A stretch of 43,653 nt of DNA from Agrococcus casei LMG 22410. GTDB taxonomy: Bacteria > Actinomycetota > Actinomycetes > Actinomycetales > Microbacteriaceae. Under the pieces are notes generated by a model, which was not told the origin of the DNA, did no database searches, and saw only the letters and a program-made list of their open reading frames with translations. Location: assembly GCF_900163565.1 (NCBI RefSeq), contig NZ_FUHU01000021.1, positions 1 through 43,653 on the forward strand. The letters run 5' to 3'. How positions within the stretch are numbered: the stretch's first letter is position 1; every line of letters starts with the position of its first letter. The position numbers and the translations under genes are program-made. Positions 12,304-32,421 of the stretch are shown here, piece by piece.

Positions 12304-12339
12304 ATGGCTGATTCCTCCTTTGATAAAGCGGTGAATTAA
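12304..12339 (+). pseudogene. yajQ: 5' stub of yajQ at the left prophage junction (attL side)
   Basis: ATG 12304 opens a frame MADSSFDKAVN then stop. MADSSFD is the conserved start of YajQ/UPF0234 nucleotide-binding proteins, which normally continue IVSKVDRQE; the match stops after codon 7. The integrase stop codon (12336-12338) lies inside the stub, as expected where a serine-integrase phage has joined host DNA. A -10-like TAGACT (12292-12297) sits six bases before the ATG, suggesting a leaderless host transcript. The crossover is inferred to lie around 12318-12326. Confidence 0.6.
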
Positions 12340-13823
12340 CTGCCAACCTCCCACGAGGGCACGACTCGAAACCTGTCGGCGACGTCGCCTCGGTATCTGG
12401 CGGGGTCGACAACTACGTGGTCGACCAGCGGCCGCAGCAGGAGCGCGCGGTGCTCGGTGCTGATGTCTGGCCACAGGGCTGCGAGGTCGCGAGGCGGTGT
12501 CACGGCCTGTTCCTCGACGGGGTTCGGTGCCGCCTGTTGCAGTACTTCCTCGGCCGACGCTCGGTCGGCCCGGATCGCTTCGGCGGCGATCTTGTAGGCG
12601 TCGTCGCTGATCGTCCCGTCGACGAGCTTGATCGTCAGCGACGAGAGCCGCTCGTCGGCCTTCGCGAGGCGGGCGTGTGCGCGGCGGGTGATGAACTCGC
12701 TGTCGCGTCTGCGCGCGGTGCCTCGGGCTCGGGCAGCGATCTGGGCGTCGGCGTCGGCGGAGTAACTGAACAGCCATTGCTCGACGTACTGGTCGACGCG
12801 CCATGCGACGACTGAGACCTTGCGGACCCCGGTGGTTGTGGATGCGGTCGAGCAGGTGTAGGTGGCGCGGCCGTCAGTGAACTTGCCGTGCATGCGACCA
12901 CCGCAGTCACCGCACCGCAGTAGACCGGTCAGCAGGTACGGGCTGCGTGCTCGGGTGCGTCGGCCGCTGCTGGCTTTGCGACGGGCAACGTATGCCCGCC
13001 AGGTGTCGTGGTCGATCACGGGCTCGTGAATGCCGGGCTCATAGGAGCGTTCCCATGGTGGCGGGATGCGTCGCTTGCCTGCCCGCACTTCGGTGCGTCC
13101 GAGTAGCCCAGCACCAAACCCGGCGTCAAGCATGCGGCCGACGCCTTGGAAGGTCCAGCGCTCGCGGTCGCCGAGGATGCCACGGTCGTTCAGCCAACGG
13201 GTGAGCTGCGCGGTTCCCATGCCGCCGAGGTAGAGCCGGTAAAGGCTGGCGAGGACGGGGCCGGTGTCTGGGTCCGGCGTGTAGGTGCCGTCGTCGGCCC
13301 GGGTGTAGCCGAAGCGGGGGCCGCCGGTCGGCGGGAGTCCTGCGCGGATGCGGCGGGCGTGGGCCTCTCGCCAGGTCTCTCCGATCAGCTCGGCTTGGTA
13401 TGCGTTCATCTCACCGAGCATGCCGCGTGCGAAGCGGCCGGACGCGGTGGCTGATTCGATCGGTTCGGTTGCGGCAACGATCTGTCCGCCGAGGGTATCG
13501 ACTCGGTCGAGGGCGATCGCCCACTTGAGGCGGGCGCGGCCGATGCGGCTGAACTTCCACACGAGGATGGTGTCGACGTCGCCTTGCTCCATGCGGCCGA
13601 TGGACTGGTCGAGCCGCGGCCACCATGCACTGTTGCGGCTCGATCCCGATTCGTCGATGCCCTCTACCCAGTCGACGATCTCGATGCCCCGGTCGGCGGC
13701 GCACTGTTCGATCGCGTGCCGTTGCACGTCGGGCGATGTGAGGCCGTCGCGATCCTTCGATACGCGGATCAGCCCGAGGCCCCGGCGTGCTGGTCGGGCA
13801 CTGGTGATCGGACGGACGCTCAT
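12336..13823 (-). CDS. Large serine integrase
   Basis: This 495-residue site-specific recombinase has the resolvase fold at its N-terminus (GLIRVSKDR, catalytic Ser22; DTILVWKFSRIGR at ~83-95). A recombinase domain (GPRFGYTRAD) follows at ~residues 165-290, then a zinc ribbon (CGDCGGRMHGK with a later YTCS) and a coiled-coil tail. Large serine integrases recombine attP and attB through a double-strand break with a 2-bp core and need no host factor; excision needs a directionality factor. The gene abuts the inferred att site, and its start overlaps the ImmA stop by ATGA, so it belongs to the leftward lysogeny operon. Confidence 0.95.
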   Translation of the reverse strand: MSVRPITSARPARRGLGLIRVSKDRDGLTSPDVQRHAIEQCAADRGIEIVDWVEGIDESGSSRNSAWWPRLDQSIGRMEQGDVDTILVWKFSRIGRARLKWAIALDRVDTLGGQIVAATEPIESATASGRFARGMLGEMNAYQAELIGETWREAHARRIRAGLPPTGGPRFGYTRADDGTYTPDPDTGPVLASLYRLYLGGMGTAQLTRWLNDRGILGDRERWTFQGVGRMLDAGFGAGLLGRTEVRAGKRRIPPPWERSYEPGIHEPVIDHDTWRAYVARRKASSGRRTRARSPYLLTGLLRCGDCGGRMHGKFTDGRATYTCSTASTTTGVRKVSVVAWRVDQYVEQWLFSYSADADAQIAARARGTARRRDSEFITRRAHARLAKADERLSSLTIKLVDGTISDDAYKIAAEAIRADRASAEEVLQQAAPNPVEEQAVTPPRDLAALWPDISTEHRALLLRPLVDHVVVDPARYRGDVADRFRVVPSWEVGS

Positions 13824-23620: not shown

Positions 23621-23791
23621 TGTTGGCAAGTATCTGTCGTATGTGACATGATCTGTTTATTGGATGGTGTTTGCTGTCCCGATCCGCCCTTCACGTCTAG
23701 CTCGTGTGGGGCGTTTCGCTTGCTCGGCGGGTTGAGGGTTGTGGCCTCCCCTCCGAGCATCTTCTCTGCCGTTCTCGGGAGGCGCTGCGCT

Positions 23792-24073
23792 ATGGCTCTT
23801 GATTCGCCTGCCTATCGCGCGTTGCGTGCTGAGCTGCGTGACGTGTGGACGGCTCAGCAGGCCCCGTGCTGGGTGTGCGCGCAGCCGATCGACTACCTGG
23901 CCCCAGCCCATGACCCGGAGGCGCTGGACGTCGACCACGTGAAGCCACGCTCGACGCACCCCCACTTGGAGCTAGATCGCAACAACTGCCGACCGTCGCA
24001 TGTGCGCTGCAACCGGTCGAGGGGCAACCGGCCGCCTCGGCCCGCGATCGGAACTGTTACCGAACAGTGGTGA
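23792..24073 (+). CDS. HNH endonuclease
   Basis: From ATG 23792 (GGGAGG eight bases upstream) the 93-residue product is nearly only the HNH module: PCWVC (Cys26, Cys29), DVDHVKPRS with His49, NNCRPSHVRCN with Asn65 and Cys66/Cys73, then SRGNR. All catalytic and zinc residues are present. Gap 23621-23791 before it has no gene. Small HNH proteins of this kind often assist terminase, but here terminase lies ~7 kb downstream, so another role is possible. Confidence 0.85.
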   Translation: MALDSPAYRALRAELRDVWTAQQAPCWVCAQPIDYLAPAHDPEALDVDHVKPRSTHPHLELDRNNCRPSHVRCNRSRGNRPPRPAIGTVTEQW

Positions 24074-25950: not shown

Positions 25951-26303
25951 CGCCGAACGCACGGGGCCTGCCCGGAGGCCGACGCCAGCTGATCGAGCAG
26001 ATCGAGCTGCAGGTCGGCATCACCATGCACCAGCACCCTCGACTGCCTCACACGGTTGTCGTGTCAGACTCTGACTGCAAGCGGCTTTACGCCGCGAGCG
26101 CGGCGATTCACCGCACGGTTGCACATCGCATGGTCCGCGTGGGCTTGCTCGTCGATGACCTGACCGTGATGACCGCACCGGACTGGGCGTGCGACCCGGT
26201 GCAGGTGGCATGGTTGCGCCTTCGCGTGAGCCTGCTCGATATCCCGTTGCGCCCCGTCATGCGCGCACTGAATGGCCTTCTCACGAAGGGACGCCCGGCA
26301 TGA
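25947..26303 (+). CDS. Hypothetical phage protein, 118 residues
   Basis: GTG 25947 overlaps the preceding stop. The protein has an initial basic stretch, RRQLIEQIELQVGITMHQHP, a strand, a helix with KRLYAASAAIHRTVAHRMVR and a hydrophobic C-terminal half (QVAWLRLRVSLLDIPLRPVM). It could be membrane-associated, though no clean transmembrane helix is present. Unrecognised. Confidence 0.62.
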   Translation: MTPNARGLPGGRRQLIEQIELQVGITMHQHPRLPHTVVVSDSDCKRLYAASAAIHRTVAHRMVRVGLLVDDLTVMTAPDWACDPVQVAWLRLRVSLLDIPLRPVMRALNGLLTKGRPA

Positions 26304-26632
26304 ACAAGTACACGGCTCACGGGCTGGCTGAGGCTGCTCGGTCTGGTCGACGCATTCTGGTGCTCACTGACCGGCCTGCCGAAGCGCTGGACCAGTTCAG
26401 GGACCTTGTGCCCGACGCCACGGTCCGCCGCACGAACGGTGACCAGCGCATCGGCTTCTCGCAGCTGGGCGTGATCTACTTCGCTTCCGCGCGATCGAAC
26501 CGGCATCGGGGTCGAACGGTCGACACGCTCTACATCGACGACCCCCAGCTCGACTGGTCCTGGCACACGATGCGTCACCAGTACGAGCCCTGTATGTCGA
26601 GCAGCCCTGACGGTGAAGTGGTCCGCCCGTGA
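26300..26632 (+). CDS. Hypothetical protein resembling part of a helicase/terminase fold
   Basis: From ATG 26300 the 110-residue product has GLAEAARSGRRILVLTDRPA, NGDQRIGFSQLGVIYFASAR and GRTVDTLYIDDPQLDW. The last segment looks like a Walker B strand (LYIDD) following a SARS-RG turn, as in P-loop ATPases of the terminase/helicase type. No Walker A loop (GxxxxGK) is present, so it should not hydrolyse ATP. It may be a domain relic or a small DNA-binding partner. Confidence 0.6.
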   Translation: MNKYTAHGLAEAARSGRRILVLTDRPAEALDQFRDLVPDATVRRTNGDQRIGFSQLGVIYFASARSNRHRGRTVDTLYIDDPQLDWSWHTMRHQYEPCMSSSPDGEVVRP

Positions 26633-27116: not shown

Positions 27117-28289
27117 ATGATTGCTGGCCTGTTTTCATCCGAGTCTGTCTCTGCTGGCCACCCTGACAAGCTGTGCGATCGAATCTCTGACGCTGTGCTC
27201 GACGCCCATCTCGCGCTCGACCCTGAGTCGCGGGTCGCGTGCGAGACCGCTGCCGGTCCCGGCTGGGTTCGTGTGTTCGGCGAGGTCCGCTCGACCGCGG
27301 TTGTCAATGTTGACGCTGTGGTGCGTGGCGCGATTCTGCGTGCTGGCTTCATCTCGGAGGCCGATGGTCTCGACCCGTCGTCGTGTGATGTGCAGGTTGC
27401 TCTTGTGCAGCAGTCGCCGGAGATCGCGGCGGGCGTCGATTTGTCGCTCGAGGCGCGCTCCGGCGGTGCCGTCGACGCGGTCGACGTGCTCGGCGCTGGC
27501 GACCAGGGGTTGATGTTCGGCTATGCCTGTTCTGAGACTGCTGAGCTGATGCCGTTGTCGCTGGTGCTGTCGCACCGGTTGACGGGGCTTCTGCCGGTGC
27601 TGTCGGGGGCTGGCCCCGACGCGAAGGCTCAAGTGACGGTTGAGTACTCGCCTGGCTTCGATGTTCCGACGGTGCGCTCGGTGCTCTGTTCTGTGCAGCA
27701 TGCGGCCGACGTCGACCGGGTGCTCTTCCAGGACAACGTCGAGCGGCTCGTGGCATCGGTGCTGCGTGACTTTGACCAGTCGCCCGTCGGTGTCCGCGTG
27801 CTAGTTAACCCTTCGGGTTCGTTTGTGCTCGGAGGCCCGGCCGCCGACGCTGGGCTCACGGGACGCAAGATCATTGTCGACACCTACGGCGGCGCTGCTC
27901 GTCACGGCGGCGGAGCGTTCTCTGGCAAGGACTCGACGAAGGTCGATCGGTCTGCGGCGTATGCGCTGCGGCACGTCGCCTCGACGATCGTGCTGGCGGG
28001 TCTCGCCGAGCGTGTCGAAGTGCAAGCGTCGTACGCGATCGGCGTGGTCGAGCCGGTCGGCATCGCGCTCGACACGTTCGGTACCGGCCGCGTGTCTAAC
28101 GAGGCGCTCGTGCGAGCGGTGCGTGCTGTGTTCGACCTTCGACCCGGCGCGATCATTGAGCGTTTCGGATTGCGTCGCCCGATCTTCGAGGCGACCGCCT
28201 CGGGCGGACACTTCGGCCGTTCCGAGTTCCCTTGGGAGCGGGACCACCCCGTTGACGCTCTGCGGGCGGCGCTCGGTCCGCTCGGCTAG
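27117..28289 (+). CDS. metK: Phage-encoded S-adenosylmethionine synthetase
   Basis: AAGGAG lies six bases before ATG 27117; the product is 390 residues, the normal MetK length. It should make S-adenosylmethionine from methionine and ATP. Key motifs are intact: GHPDK (14-18), GAGDQG (126-131), PDAKAQ with Lys170, LTGRKIIVDTYGG (247-259) and HGGGAFSGKD (263-272) followed by STKVDRSAAY. SEGHPDK, the usual form, reads SAGHPDK here, and several otherwise conserved surface segments diverge, so it is not a recent copy of a housekeeping gene. Codons ending in T are more common than in neighbouring genes. It precedes a DNA methyltransferase gene by ~640 bases and its stop overlaps that of the opposing HTH gene. 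Confidence 0.93.
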   Translation: MIAGLFSSESVSAGHPDKLCDRISDAVLDAHLALDPESRVACETAAGPGWVRVFGEVRSTAVVNVDAVVRGAILRAGFISEADGLDPSSCDVQVALVQQSPEIAAGVDLSLEARSGGAVDAVDVLGAGDQGLMFGYACSETAELMPLSLVLSHRLTGLLPVLSGAGPDAKAQVTVEYSPGFDVPTVRSVLCSVQHAADVDRVLFQDNVERLVASVLRDFDQSPVGVRVLVNPSGSFVLGGPAADAGLTGRKIIVDTYGGAARHGGGAFSGKDSTKVDRSAAYALRHVASTIVLAGLAERVEVQASYAIGVVEPVGIALDTFGTGRVSNEALVRAVRAVFDLRPGAIIERFGLRRPIFEATASGGHFGRSEFPWERDHPVDALRAALGPLG

Positions 28290-28489
28290 CTGCCGTCGAT
28301 GCGCTTGTAGGCGAGGGCGAGGCTGCGGTCGGCCATGCCAGTGGCTCGCTTGATCTGAGTCCAGCTGACGCCGCTGTCGCGGGCTTGCTTGATTAGGTCG
28401 TCCCGGTAGCGCTGCTGATCTTTTCGGCGCTGGTCGAGGTCATTGAGTCGCTTGCTTGCTTGCTCCAGGTCGGTCAGAACGTTCGCCAT
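28286..28489 (-). CDS. Small HTH protein, leftward regulator
   Basis: This 67-residue protein (ATG 28489; an ATG three codons upstream overlaps the -10 region) has an N-terminal coiled-coil helix (LEQASKRLNDLDQRRKDQQR) and a C-terminal HTH (LIKQARDSGVSWTQIKRATG, then ADRSLALAYKRI). It is the only leftward gene in the prophage outside the integrase operon. Its stop overlaps the metK stop tail to tail in CTAG. It shares a bidirectional promoter with the gene at 28542 and probably regulates both directions. Confidence 0.75.
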   Translation of the reverse strand: MANVLTDLEQASKRLNDLDQRRKDQQRYRDDLIKQARDSGVSWTQIKRATGMADRSLALAYKRIDGS

Positions 28490-28495
28490 GTTTTT

Positions 28496-28514
28496 CACTA
28501 TACCGGTTGTAGTG
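28496..28514. promoter_or_regulatory. Imperfect inverted repeat, left operator
   Basis: CACTATACC and GGTTGTAGTG form an imperfect inverted repeat that covers the leftward -10 box (TATAGT, 28502 to 28497) and the rightward -35 box (TTGTAG, 28507-28512). One bound protein would therefore block both promoters. Confidence 0.55.
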
Positions 28515-28535
28515 AGTCACTATAACTGTTATAGT
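28497..28535. promoter_or_regulatory. Bidirectional leaderless promoter pair
   Basis: Rightward: TTGTAG (28507-28512), 17 bases, TATAGT (28530-28535), then six bases to ATG 28542. Leftward: TTATAG (28525 to 28520), 17 bases, TATAGT (28502 to 28497), then seven bases to ATG 28489. Both have good -10 boxes, exact spacing and no room for a ribosome site, so both messages should be leaderless. The promoters face each other and share the same ~39 bases, an AT-rich island in GC-rich DNA. Confidence 0.75.
28519..28535. promoter_or_regulatory. Perfect inverted repeat, right operator
   Basis: ACTATAAC and GTTATAGT are exact inverted copies around a central T. The element covers the rightward -10 box and the leftward -35 box and lies 22 bases, about two helical turns, from the left operator measured start to start. 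Confidence 0.7.
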
Positions 28536-28541
28536 AGAGGC

Positions 28542-28841
28542 ATGGACAACAACACGGCAAACGCATTCGGCACTCCCGCTCTTCACTTCGACTACACGGC
28601 CCAGGGCCTCGCGACGATTCGCGCAGCGTTCCAGGTCGCAGGCGTCGAGACCCACGTCACCCGCTATGGCTTCATCCAGGCCAAGGTCGGCGACCAGGTG
28701 GTCCGAGTCGCTCAGGACGACACCACCTTCTCAGTGACCTCCTACACCGGAAACATGCAGCTCGCGGGCGAGGTCCGCCTCGCTGGCTCGTTTGTTGACT
28801 CGGCCGTCCTGGCCGGTCTGATCCAGGCGGCGCTCGCCTGA
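28542..28841 (+). CDS. Hypothetical protein under the divergent switch
   Basis: This 99-residue protein starts MDNNTANAFGTPALHFDYTA and continues with a helix (QGLATIRAAFQVAGVETHVT), strands (GFIQAKVGDQVVRVAQDDTT, FSVTSYTGNMQLAGEVRLAG) and a final helix. No family recognised. Being the sole gene between a switch promoter and a hairpin, it may be a regulator or effector expressed when the HTH protein is absent. Confidence 0.68.
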   Translation: MDNNTANAFGTPALHFDYTAQGLATIRAAFQVAGVETHVTRYGFIQAKVGDQVVRVAQDDTTFSVTSYTGNMQLAGEVRLAGSFVDSAVLAGLIQAALA

Positions 28842-28866
28842 GTCGAAACACCTTGCACACGAGTTG

Positions 28867-28892
28867 ACGCCCGGGCCTGACGGCTCGGGCGT
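28867..28892 (+). terminator. GC-rich hairpin after the switch gene
   Basis: ACGCCCGGGCC and GGCTCGGGCGT pair (one G-T) around loop TGAC. Only two T residues follow, so it is a weak intrinsic terminator or an attenuator that partly insulates the methyltransferase gene. Confidence 0.5.
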
Positions 28893-28926
28893 TGCTCATG
28901 GTTCCCTCTCAAGAAAGAAGTGACTC

Positions 28927-30201
28927 ATGGCTCTCGAAGTTACCGTGCGGCCGCTGTCCGAGCTGAAGCCCTACCACCAGAACCCCCGTCGAGGGAACAC
29001 TGCAGCGATCGCTGACTCGCTCGCGAAGCGCGGCCAGTACAAGCCGATCGTCGTGAACCTCGGCACGCACACCGGCCGCCCGATGGAGATTCTTGCGGGC
29101 AACCACACTTTCCTCGCCGCGCACTCGCTGGACTGGCCGACGATCCAGGTGGTCACGGTCGACGTCAACGATGCCGAGGCAGCGCAGATCGTGCTTGCCG
29201 ATAACAAGCTCGCCGATCTGGGCGGGTATGACGATGTCGACCTGCTGGCAACGCTGCAGGAGGCGGGGTCGCTCGACGCTACCGGCTACACCGACCAGGA
29301 CCTTACCGAGCTGCTGCGTGCGCTCGACGAGCCCGTCGGCCTCACCGATCCCGACGATGTGCCCGCGCTCACCGACACCACCATCACTGCCGAGGGCGAT
29401 GTGTGGCGGCTTGGACCCCATGTGCTCTACGTCGGCTCGTCGGGCAACGTCGAGGCCGTCGCCGACGCCGCCCAGGGCACCGTGGATGCGGTCTGGACGG
29501 ACCCGCCCTACGGGGTCTCCTACGTCGGCGGCACCGGCATGACCATCAAGAACGACGGGGCTGACGAGGCCGTTCAGACATTCGCTGATGCTGTTGGCAC
29601 CATCCTCGCTGTCGCTCGACCTGGTGCACCTGTCTATGTCGCGCACGCTGATCTGATGCGCGGCGAGTTCCAGCGGGTCATGAGTGAAGCGGGCATCCTG
29701 TACCGGCAGACGCTGATCTGGGTGAAGAACGCTCTCGTGATGGGGCGGGCCGATTACCACTGGAAGCACGAACCGATCCTCGAGGCCGAACTGCCCGAGG
29801 CGGGGATCGTCGACGAGTCCTTCGATCCCGTCGCTTACGGCTTCACCCCTGGCGGTGAGGGCAGGCTGGGCCGGGGCGGCAAGCGCTGGTACGGCGACAA
29901 CAAGTCGTCGACCGTGTTCCAGGTCCCGAAGCCCAAAGCGAACAGCGAGCACCCGACGATGAAGCCTGTTGAGCTGATCGAGCGCATGCTGCGCAATTCG
30001 GTACAGACGGGGGGGCTCGTGTTTGACCCCTTCGGCGGCTCGGGCTCAACGCTCATTGCCGCGCACCGGCTCGGCGCTCGCGCGCTGCTGTGCGAGCTTG
30101 ACCCCCAGTACGCGGACGTGATCTGTCGCCGTTGGGAGGAACACACAGGCGTCACCCCGATTCGCGACGGCGAACCTGTCACCTTCACCGATGCGCCATG
30201 A
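28927..30201 (+). CDS. ParB-DNA methyltransferase fusion
   Basis: This 424-residue protein joins an N-terminal ParB/sulfiredoxin-like domain (VTVRPLSELKPYHQNPRRGN, ILAGNHTFLAAHSL, VTVDVNDAEAAQIVLADNK; residues ~1-100) to an amino-methyltransferase. DPPYG (192-196, motif IV) precedes FDPFGGSGST (366-375, motif I), with HPTMKPVEL between them, which is class beta order for N6-adenine or N4-cytosine methylation using SAM. No restriction partner is adjacent, so it is an orphan enzyme, perhaps protecting phage DNA or regulating packaging or expression. AAGAAAGAAG precedes ATG 28927. The upstream metK could supply its cofactor. Confidence 0.92.
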   Translation: MALEVTVRPLSELKPYHQNPRRGNTAAIADSLAKRGQYKPIVVNLGTHTGRPMEILAGNHTFLAAHSLDWPTIQVVTVDVNDAEAAQIVLADNKLADLGGYDDVDLLATLQEAGSLDATGYTDQDLTELLRALDEPVGLTDPDDVPALTDTTITAEGDVWRLGPHVLYVGSSGNVEAVADAAQGTVDAVWTDPPYGVSYVGGTGMTIKNDGADEAVQTFADAVGTILAVARPGAPVYVAHADLMRGEFQRVMSEAGILYRQTLIWVKNALVMGRADYHWKHEPILEAELPEAGIVDESFDPVAYGFTPGGEGRLGRGGKRWYGDNKSSTVFQVPKPKANSEHPTMKPVELIERMLRNSVQTGGLVFDPFGGSGSTLIAAHRLGARALLCELDPQYADVICRRWEEHTGVTPIRDGEPVTFTDAP

Positions 30202-30812
30202 AGGCCACCGACCGCGCTAAGCGTGACGCCCAGGCACTCGACCTGCGACGCGCTGGCCTGGCTCTGCCGCGTATCGCCGAGCAGCTTGGCTTCTCGACCA
30301 CGGCGGCTGCCCAGGCGAGCATCAATCGTGCCATGCAGGCACAGGGCACCGAGTTCGATCCCGCCGACGTACGCGCGATGGAACTCGACCGGCTCGACCG
30401 ACTGCAGCAGGCGGTGTGGGTAAAAGCAATCAAGGGCGATCTGAAAGCTGTGGAAACAGCGCAGAAGCTCACCGAGGCTCGGGTCCGGCTGGCGGGGATC
30501 GCCGCCCGTGGCGAGTCGATCATGACCGAGTCATTCGACCAGACGATCGAGGCGCTCGCTACCGAGCCGGAGGATGCATCAATCGTCGCGTCTGGTCGTC
30601 GCATTGCGGAGCGCATCGACACTGCTGCGGCGTCTGGTGACGCTACCGCCGAAACGAAGGCGCTCTATTTGATGCCACACCTGATGAACATTCTGCGAGA
30701 GCTGGGGGCTACCCCAGCTGCTCGGGCTGCATTGAAGGCGAAGGCATCGAGTGGAGACCAAACGAAACGCGCAAAGCTACAAGCGCTCCGCGGAGGGGCA
30801 TCAGCGGCGTAG
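30198..30812 (+). CDS. Terminase small subunit-like protein
   Basis: From ATG 30198 (ATGA overlap) the 204-residue product has an HTH (RRAGLALPRIAEQLGFSTTA), a helical oligomerisation region (ELDRLDRLQQAVWVKAIKGD) and a basic C-terminal tail (KAKASSGDQTKRAKLQALRG). This layout and its place directly upstream of the large subunit identify it as the DNA-recognition subunit of the packaging motor. It overlaps the large subunit gene by 62 bases. Confidence 0.8.
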   Translation: MKATDRAKRDAQALDLRRAGLALPRIAEQLGFSTTAAAQASINRAMQAQGTEFDPADVRAMELDRLDRLQQAVWVKAIKGDLKAVETAQKLTEARVRLAGIAARGESIMTESFDQTIEALATEPEDASIVASGRRIAERIDTAAASGDATAETKALYLMPHLMNILRELGATPAARAALKAKASSGDQTKRAKLQALRGGASAA

Positions 30813-32421
30813 CGGTACTCGTGGCCCGGGCTCGACTTACGCGGCCGCGGTCGGTGGCCCCACAAGGGGCCAGTCCTTCAAGCGCAAGGTCGGTTGCACC
30901 GAGCCGCGCATTTCGACTGCCCCGCTGCGCGAGCTGACGCGGGAAACATCGCGCGGCTACGAGTGCATCGAGTTCGCTGAATCGATCCTCGACGTCACTC
31001 TCTTGCCTTGGCAGAAAGCGCTGCTGATCCGGGCGCTTGAGCTCAACCCCGACGGCACGTACCGGTTCAAGACCGTTGTCCTGCTGGTCGCGCGCCAGAA
31101 CGGTAAGTCGCTCCTGATGCAGGTGCTGTCGCTCTGGCGAATGTACGTCGACGGCGCACCGCTTGTGATCGGCACGGCACAGTCCCTCGACATCGCCGAA
31201 GAGCAGTGGATGGGGGCGGTCGAAACCGCCGAGGCAATCCCCGAGCTTGCCGAGATGATCGAGCACGTCGACCGCACGAACGGCAAGAAGGCACTGCGCC
31301 TGAGCACTGGCGAGCGGTACAAAGTCGCTGCTGCATCGCGCCGCGGTGGCCGTGGCCTCTCAGGTGATCTCGTGCTGCTCGACGAGCTGCGCGAACACCA
31401 GAACTGGCAAGCGTGGGGCGCTGTCACCAAGACGACGATGGCCCGTCGGCACGCCCAGATATGGGCGGCATCGAACGCGGGTGACCTCGCGTCGGTCGTG
31501 CTTCGTCACTTGCGCTCGCTGGCTCACCGTGAACTCGGCTGGCCGGACGGTAAGGACGGCATGGTCGACCTGCCGGACGCGATCGAGCCCGACAGTTCGC
31601 TCGGCATCTTCGAGTGGTCTGCAGCGCCCGACCGGGACGTGTGGGATCGGGACGGCTGGTGCGAGGCGAACCCTTCACTGGGCTACACGATCGAAGAACG
31701 CGCCATTGCGGCCGCTGCTGCGACTGACCCCGAGTGGGTGTTCCGAACCGAGGTCATGTGCCAGTTCGTGAACATGGCCGGGCTCGGTCCGTTCCCCGCG
31801 AAGTCGTGGGCGACGTCACTCGATCGCCTGGAGGATCGCCGCGCTCGCGGCGTGACCCGCGACTCGAACCGGCCCGCCTGCTATGGCATCGATATGTCGC
31901 ACAACCGCGAATGGGTGTACGTCGCGATCGCCTATTGGGACACCGAGGGGCGGGCGCGCGTTGACATTGCCGCGCAGCGCCCCGGCCCTGACTGGCTGAT
32001 CGGTTGGCTGCTGTCGCCGGATCGGCGTGTGAAGCCGGAGCACCTGGCGCTGCAGCGGCGCGGTGCACCGATCTCGTCTATGTGGGACGCGCTCGAAGAG
32101 GCGGGCCTGGAACCGCACCCGTGGGAAGGTCCACAGCTTGCGGGCTGGCACGGCATCTTCTTCGACTTGTTGCGCTCCGCCGTTGCAGAGAAGGACCCCG
32201 TGGTGCGGCTCACGCACAACGGTCAACCGGCATTGGACGTGCCCGCGAACTCGGCGGATATTCGAGCGCTCGGCGACGGCTGGGTGATCGACCGCAAGGG
32301 GTCCCCGACCGACCCGGCGGCGCTCGTCGCCGCGATCGCAGCCGTCGGGCTGCTCATGACCAACCCAGAGCCGACTCACGAGTCGGCGTATGAAAGCGAG
32401 GGCCTCATGGTTCTCGAATAG
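30751..32421 (+). CDS. Terminase large subunit
   Basis: GTG 30751 starts a 556-residue protein. The ATPase domain has Walker A VARQNGKS (113-120) preceded by KTVVLL, and Walker B LVLLDE (207-212), with SRRGGRGLSGD between. The nuclease domain follows, with CYGIDMSHNREW carrying the first acidic residue. It powers DNA entry into the prohead and cuts concatemers. The first ~45 residues, overlapping the small subunit gene, are low-complexity, so the real N-terminus could be shorter, but no alternative start is obvious. Confidence 0.95.
   Translation: METKRNAQSYKRSAEGHQRRSGTRGPGSTYAAAVGGPTRGQSFKRKVGCTEPRISTAPLRELTRETSRGYECIEFAESILDVTLLPWQKALLIRALELNPDGTYRFKTVVLLVARQNGKSLLMQVLSLWRMYVDGAPLVIGTAQSLDIAEEQWMGAVETAEAIPELAEMIEHVDRTNGKKALRLSTGERYKVAAASRRGGRGLSGDLVLLDELREHQNWQAWGAVTKTTMARRHAQIWAASNAGDLASVVLRHLRSLAHRELGWPDGKDGMVDLPDAIEPDSSLGIFEWSAAPDRDVWDRDGWCEANPSLGYTIEERAIAAAAATDPEWVFRTEVMCQFVNMAGLGPFPAKSWATSLDRLEDRRARGVTRDSNRPACYGIDMSHNREWVYVAIAYWDTEGRARVDIAAQRPGPDWLIGWLLSPDRRVKPEHLALQRRGAPISSMWDALEEAGLEPHPWEGPQLAGWHGIFFDLLRSAVAEKDPVVRLTHNGQPALDVPANSADIRALGDGWVIDRKGSPTDPAALVAAIAAVGLLMTNPEPTHESAYESEGLMVLE

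Follow-up and report, generated by a model that had tools for sequence, protein, structure and literature searches.

The window analysed here is a stretch of 43,653 nucleotides from Agrococcus casei LMG 22410 (contig NZ_FUHU01000021.1, positions 1 to 43,653; source genome 2.79 Mb in 48 contigs). It contains a prophage that carries a gene for S-adenosylmethionine (SAM) synthetase, metK, followed on the same strand by a gene for a DNA methyltransferase whose N-terminal part is probably ParB-like. Judging from sequence comparisons, metK is probably an accessory phage gene that would supply SAM for the phage's own DNA methyltransferase. This reading rests on an intact MetK, on a gene order that recurs among phages with mostly near-touching genes, and, for a single phage backbone that is well sampled, on the position just ahead of the methyltransferase gene, which is occupied by full-length MetK, by compact MetK or by neither. 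The features of the locus, including open reading frames (ORFs) without assigned function, are:

27117-28289, plus strand: metK, S-adenosylmethionine synthetase, 390 aa, complete (TIGR01034, Pfam N, M and C domains, invariant motifs)
28286-28498, minus strand: small antisense ORF of 70 codons, helix-turn-helix-like (phrog_686, E 5.8e-4; in-frame ATG at 28489)
28495-28535, no strand: operator-like pair of 19-nt direct repeats (repeat search and sequence reading)
28542-28841, plus strand: 99-aa ORF just 5' of the methyltransferase (ORF only)
28927-30201, plus strand: ParB_N + N6_N4_Mtase DNA methyltransferase, 424 aa (Pfam, PHROG and PADLOC matches)
30198-30812, plus strand: terminase small subunit, TerS (Pfam Terminase_6, E 8e-15; phrog_19969)
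30751-32421, plus strand: terminase large subunit, TerL (phrog_9, E 5e-80)
23648-24073, plus strand: HNH endonuclease (Pfam HNH, E 4e-7; phrog_338)
12336-13823, minus strand: large serine recombinase, the prophage integrase (Pfam Resolvase, Recombinase, Zn_ribbon_recom)

The metK locus of the Agrococcus prophage

The gene order is metK - two small ORFs - methyltransferase - TerS - TerL. That metK lies inside a prophage, as a first-pass annotation of the DNA had stated, is borne out by Pfam and PHROG matches in the window to a serine recombinase, YqaJ, ERF, TerS, TerL, portal, head protease, capsid and tape measure genes.

The metK gene starts with ATG and has a ribosome site, AAGGAG, ahead of it. 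Its product scores 421 bits against NCBIfam TIGR01034 (curated equivalog cut-off 309.4), possesses all three Pfam MAT domains (N, M and C) and matches phrog_1569. Among 82 cellular MetK representatives, 102 columns are near-invariant (at least 97.5% one residue); the window MetK keeps 98 of them and deviates at 4. Fifteen positions, which we take to be substrate, metal or phosphate contacts, are all identical in the window MetK, in 82/82 cellular and in 20/20 viral representatives. The annotated full-length MetK with substrate and metal motifs therefore stands, and the enzyme appears intact in sequence. In domain structure and motifs it resembles cellular MetK/MAT (TIGR01034), from which it differs in being phage-borne, in forming a long branch of its own and in having Ala for the Glu that precedes GHPDK. 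This replacement (SAGHPDK for SEGHPDK, already remarked on in the annotation) concerns residue 13, window positions 27153-27155. The Glu is absent from 16/20 viral representatives, the window included, versus 5/82 cellular ones, with Ala, Lys, Met, Val, Ile or Gly as viral substitutes, and its column is one of four, among 146 conserved, that are lost in at least 4 of 7 viral lineages. Its loss in phage MetK would seem notable but not unique.

The host's own metK (at C24) is 51% identical to the window MetK. The closest relative found, among the best 80 of 430 stretches, is the IMG/VR phage locus L009 (78%), a related phage with TerL 73% and portal 70% identical to those of the window; the two MetK share a long branch of their own in the tree (support 100/100). 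Recent capture from the host, against which the annotation had argued on grounds of divergence, is rejected by this identity and by the separate branch, far from tight clustering with the host gene. The deeper placement differs between trees with and without long branches: the full MetK tree puts the window MetK on the backbone, and removal of eight long or divergent rows, together with inclusion of L011, places it among Actinobacteria (97/100, 33-row set). Approximately unbiased (AU) tests did not reject its union with any of the following: Firmicutes phages (p 0.561 and 0.375), the host family (p 0.30 and 0.351), Actinobacteria as a whole (p 0.206) and locus L010 (p 0.517). The tree thus does not choose between descent from the host's relatives long ago and an origin common with Firmicutes phage MetK (AU p 0.2-0.56). 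A grouping of L010 with Firmicutes phages was rejected (AU p 0.019, one of seven tests, the group being chosen post hoc).

The methyltransferase matches Pfam N6_N4_Mtase (E 3e-22, 80 bits, cut-off 26.7). Its N-terminus matches Pfam ParB_N below the cut-off (E 8e-5, 23.1 bits, cut-off 26.3), and residues 2-150 match the ParB-like phrog_723 (E 1e-47). Further matches are to phrog_498 (E 5e-113) and to a PADLOC Type II methyltransferase (E 2e-78). DPPY lies ahead of FxGxG, a motif order that we read as beta-class, and the enzyme is probably of the adenine-N6 type. No restriction-enzyme model was matched in the PADLOC scan of ten genes in 23.6-30.8 kb or in Pfam and PHROG scans of part of the genes; the HNH gene lies about 5 kb 5' of the methyltransferase.

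Upstream of metK, the small ORF at 26189-26632 has a match to phrog_6910 (E 2e-11), as does part of the window TerL; the ORF is possibly a terminase-like fragment or a nucleotide-binding relative.

Recurrence of the gene pair among phages

From the IMG/VR search with MetK the best 80 of 430 stretches were kept, and 79 remained once the window's own phage (L008) was left out. Loci were counted as paired if a methyltransferase like P0002 or like that of L009 lay no more than 3 kb downstream of metK and in the same orientation. This is so in 64 of the 79 MetK loci, with a gap within 100 nt in 62 of the 64; of the 15 unpaired loci, four have less than 1.2 kb of flank. At 80% identity, 11/18 MetK clusters contain a paired member. 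Pairing is found in 0/128 loci taken as cellular, 67 of them with the full 3 kb right flank and 48, from the genome search, with at most about 1.5 kb. Among annotated phage records, a methyltransferase lies within 1.6 kb after metK in 4/5, FP_Brigit being the one without. A DNA search across the family matched 380/398 genomes; 19 of its loci (L200-L218) gave no methyltransferase or TerL match in their short stretches. The link between metK and a methyltransferase that the annotation had suggested is thus present in related phages (64/79), although it was already known and raw co-occurrence overstates it.

The partner varies. In L010 (MetK 52%) metK overlaps the start of the methyltransferase gene, and TerS, TerL and portal follow. 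In L009 the protein after metK (L009:7413-8987) has a ParB-like part 62% identical over 136 residues to that of the window, and its N6_N4 motif I region lies before a CPPY-type motif (CPPY by eye), the reverse of the order in the window enzyme. The two phages have MetK in common and differ in the catalytic domain of the partner.

The same arrangement, metK and then an N6_N4-type methyltransferase on the same strand, occurs in the streptococcal prophages Phi1207.3, phi-m46.1, Javan55 and Javan630. A ParB-like domain is named for the methyltransferase of Phi1207.3, and, as in the window, terminase genes come after the methyltransferase in Phi1207.3 and Javan630. Unlike the window, these prophages have same-strand ORFs or none between the two genes, and Javan55 and phi-m46.1 have a C5 methylase after the methyltransferase; identity to the window proteins is 44-48% for MetK and 29-31% for the methyltransferase in phi-m46.1, Javan55 and Javan630 (Phi1207.3 left out). 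A 2014 paper put forward the SAM synthetase of a streptococcal prophage as methyl donor to the C5 methylase Orf33 (PMC4260502). In the Tn6164 island of Clostridium difficile 078, a SAM synthetase is likewise followed by a DNA methylase N-4/N-6, with TerS before the synthetase and not, as in the window, after the methyltransferase (PMC3485107). Erysipelothrix phage phi1605 has metK, one ORF and then an adenine methyltransferase. Tn6164 and phi1605 differ from the window in having Firmicutes hosts. The pairing is therefore already known, and the window pair is an actinobacterial instance of it.

MetK is found in 136/50,697 phage records. Five of these are Helicobacter records (e.g. PQ159895, PQ159896), in which the match is probably host flank, the interval between metK and lpxD being a frequent insertion site of H. 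pylori prophages (PMC11321410). The annotated view that few phages carry MetK is right in that the gene is uncommon; with these records and 430 IMG/VR stretches it is not exceptional. Methyltransferases of the phrog_498 type occur in 1,026/50,697 records, among which Mycobacterium and Gordonia phages form the largest groups. These actinophage ParB_N-methyltransferases belong to the same family as that of the window and likewise adjoin terminase genes; Mycobacterium and Gordonia are, by contrast, absent from the ten named groups with MetK matches (5 records ungrouped).

A separate group of loci (L013, L015, L016, L017, L036) possesses a 406-aa MetK ORF with no methyltransferase found nearby; the neighbours of these metK genes, read by eye, suggest phage replication genes.

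The slot before the methyltransferase

Several observations weigh against a supply of SAM to the methyltransferase. The annotated succession of MetK and methyltransferase is correct in order, but the genes are not adjacent: 637 nt with the antisense ORF and the 99-aa ORF lie between them, a gap that exceeds those of 62/64 relatives (100 nt or less). The antisense ORF has no Pfam or NCBIfam match and a weak PADLOC match to DpdH (E 4e-4); the 99-aa ORF has no PHROG, Pfam, NCBIfam or PADLOC match. Between these divergent small genes sit the operator-like repeats, 22 nt apart, the second of which holds a perfect 8+1+8 palindrome (28519-28535) with TATAGT-like ends; they probably represent a self-regulated divergent promoter. 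Since a divergent operator-bearing gene pair lies inside the interval, the methyltransferase may have its own control, and metK and methyltransferase may be separately expressed. No SAM riboswitch or other Rfam RNA family was matched at the locus; a sigma-70 promoter scan there gave 0 matches, such a scan being uninformative in actinobacteria.

Among relatives, no downstream partner was found in 7/18 MetK clusters at 80% identity. These include the putative phage loci L014, L020 and L029; for L020, motif reading points to a C5-methyltransferase-like ORF some 3.8 kb downstream, and the likewise partnerless L019 has a methyltransferase about 2 kb upstream and a right flank of just 123 nt. Conversely, L220, L221 and L226 possess methyltransferases 58-63% identical to that of the window with no MetK match in the fetched stretches, an HNH homologue being the closest window-like gene upstream. 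In actinobacterial relatives the interval between HNH and methyltransferase genes is short without metK; in the window and L009 it is filled by metK and several other genes.

A control, likewise on the opposing side, used the best 80 IMG/VR loci fetched by the SNF2-type helicase that lies upstream of metK in Firmicutes phages, a query that contains no metK. In a first count of 44 loci that extend 5.5 kb or more beyond the helicase (methyltransferase above 60 bits, compact MetK counted as absent), a methyltransferase was present in 17/18 loci with canonical metK versus 24/26 without (Fisher p 1.0). In this helicase backbone the methyltransferase thus belongs to the core genes and metK is optional, so the raw 64/79 largely reflects the backbone. 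Mapped on the methyltransferase tree of the 44 loci, canonical metK switches between presence and absence at least 5 times.

Sixteen helicase loci first counted as lacking metK carry, at the metK spot, an HPDK-containing protein some 260 aa long, the compact MetK. For a recount, compact MetK was recognised and the methyltransferase limit was raised to 90 bits (which drops that of L281). Of the 52 loci with 3 kb or more, 22 have full metK (21 with methyltransferase), 16 have compact metK (15) and 14 have neither (12). The slot from the TerS-like gene to the methyltransferase was measurable in 45/48 methyltransferase-bearing loci (full 21, compact 15, neither 9). Where full metK is present it spans 1051-1185 nt, where compact metK is present 769-895 nt, and in loci lacking both -12 to 160 nt; no other occupant was found among the 45 measured loci. 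Clustered by methyltransferase at 90% identity, the slot loci comprise 9 full, 9 compact and 8 with neither. The gene upstream of the slot is annotated as terminase or terminase small subunit in two records. This exclusivity, together with compact MetK, is better evidence for a link than co-occurrence.

Compact MetK (e.g. L243:11107-11889, L253:11088-11870, L280:6556-7338, and L309-L388) matches Pfam S-AdoMet_synt_N above the cut-off in 6/6 scanned sequences and S-AdoMet_synt_C below the cut-off only. With 44-50 bits against TIGR01034 (three scanned; cut-off 309.4) it is not filed as an equivalog. Phrog_1569, to which PHROGs assigns no function, matches both MetK forms and spans the compact one end to end in 3/3 scanned. 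In a profile-profile comparison, the compact protein and full-length phage MetK align over 224 columns (probability 97.9, E 3.5e-13), and HPDK, GD(N/Q)G, D.K, T.RK and GGG..GKD..K.D.S fall in register. An AlphaFold2 model built from 52 compact sequences alone reaches pLDDT 81 and pTM 0.81, with residues 166-190, including part of the putative active site, unsure; it superseded an earlier model from 14 sequences (pLDDT 59.9), which was too poor. The best 50 of 155 PDB matches to the model (E <= 0.001) are all MAT enzymes, the first with E 6.4e-12, TM 0.66 by query length and rmsd 7.1; a Foldseek search against BFVD gave no match at E <= 0.001. The compact protein is, according to the model, a MAT-fold relative with the MetK motifs kept.

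A scan of IMG/VR for compact MetK, restricted to the best 80 of at least 583 loci (30 clusters at 80% identity, some loci on contigs already in other samples), found a ParB-type methyltransferase downstream in 74/80, within 25 nt in 73, and canonical metK in 0/80. Of the six without methyltransferase, five have 1,139 nt of flank or less and L374 has 4,000. The compact gene overlaps the methyltransferase gene in 46/74 (start codons by rule). Among phage records it occurs in 24/50,697, of which 22 label it "hypothetical", one has no annotation and the remaining one, Gardnerella phage vB_Gva_AB1, names it SAM synthetase; a methyltransferase comes directly after it in 4/4 records fetched. No description of compact phage MetK was found in the open-licence literature, searched partly among best-ranked matches only.

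Functional interpretation

On the favoured reading, a supply of SAM to the phage's own methyltransferase, the phage MetK would make SAM, this SAM would be used to methylate phage DNA, and the extra amount would matter when replication multiplies target sites or when host SAM is limiting. The gene would serve as a booster rather than being required, because many phages carry the methyltransferase without metK. To our knowledge, whether host SAM limits phages that methylate their DNA is untested.

The main rival is lysogenic conversion, in which metK would alter the host (polyamines, autoinducer AI-2, cell surface, aggregation) and the methyltransferase neighbourhood would be incidental. It agrees with the MetK lineages that have no detected downstream methyltransferase and has experimental support in a streptococcal prophage (PMC8223999). 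The same phenotypes, however, were reported there after deletion of a neighbouring toxin-antitoxin pair or endonuclease, and secondary mutations were present, per the authors, in those complemented strains in which the phenotypes were not restored. Lysogenic conversion also leaves the gene overlap and the slot exclusivity beside the methyltransferase unexplained, and we hold it to be unlikely. A joint function would likewise be dispensable if metK were passing cargo in a tolerant spot beside a core methyltransferase by the terminase. The near-constancy of the methyltransferase with and without metK in the helicase backbone speaks for such hitch-hiking, as do the several non-metK genes in the HNH-methyltransferase interval of the window and L009; the helicase-backbone slot, however, held SAM synthetases only, of two very different sizes (21 and 15 of 45). 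We hold mere cargo to be unlikely as well. Very improbable is a counter-measure, by which phage MetK would keep SAM available against a host defence or the SAM-degrading enzyme of a competing phage: a second, diverged enzyme, 51% identical to the host's, would fit, and the solved complex of T3 SAM lyase with SAM synthase (entry 8bb1, by title) implies that phages attacking SAM exist, but no SAM-lowering defence was seen, none having been searched for in the host genome, and the annotated ideas of outlasting host SAM depletion and of "heavy" methylation find no support in the present data.

Returning to the supply of SAM to the methyltransferase, the locus may tentatively be seen as a dedicated phage methylation unit with its own cofactor supply, the supplier being cut from about 380 to 260 residues in one large group, where compact MetK may hand SAM directly to the methyltransferase as a complex. 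The window pair would then be an actinobacterial branch in which the partner methyltransferase varies while metK is shared. Full, compact and no MetK before the same methyltransferase constitute natural test sets. MAT chains matched in the PDB measure 377-430 aa; compact MetK, provided that it is active, would be a much smaller enzyme.

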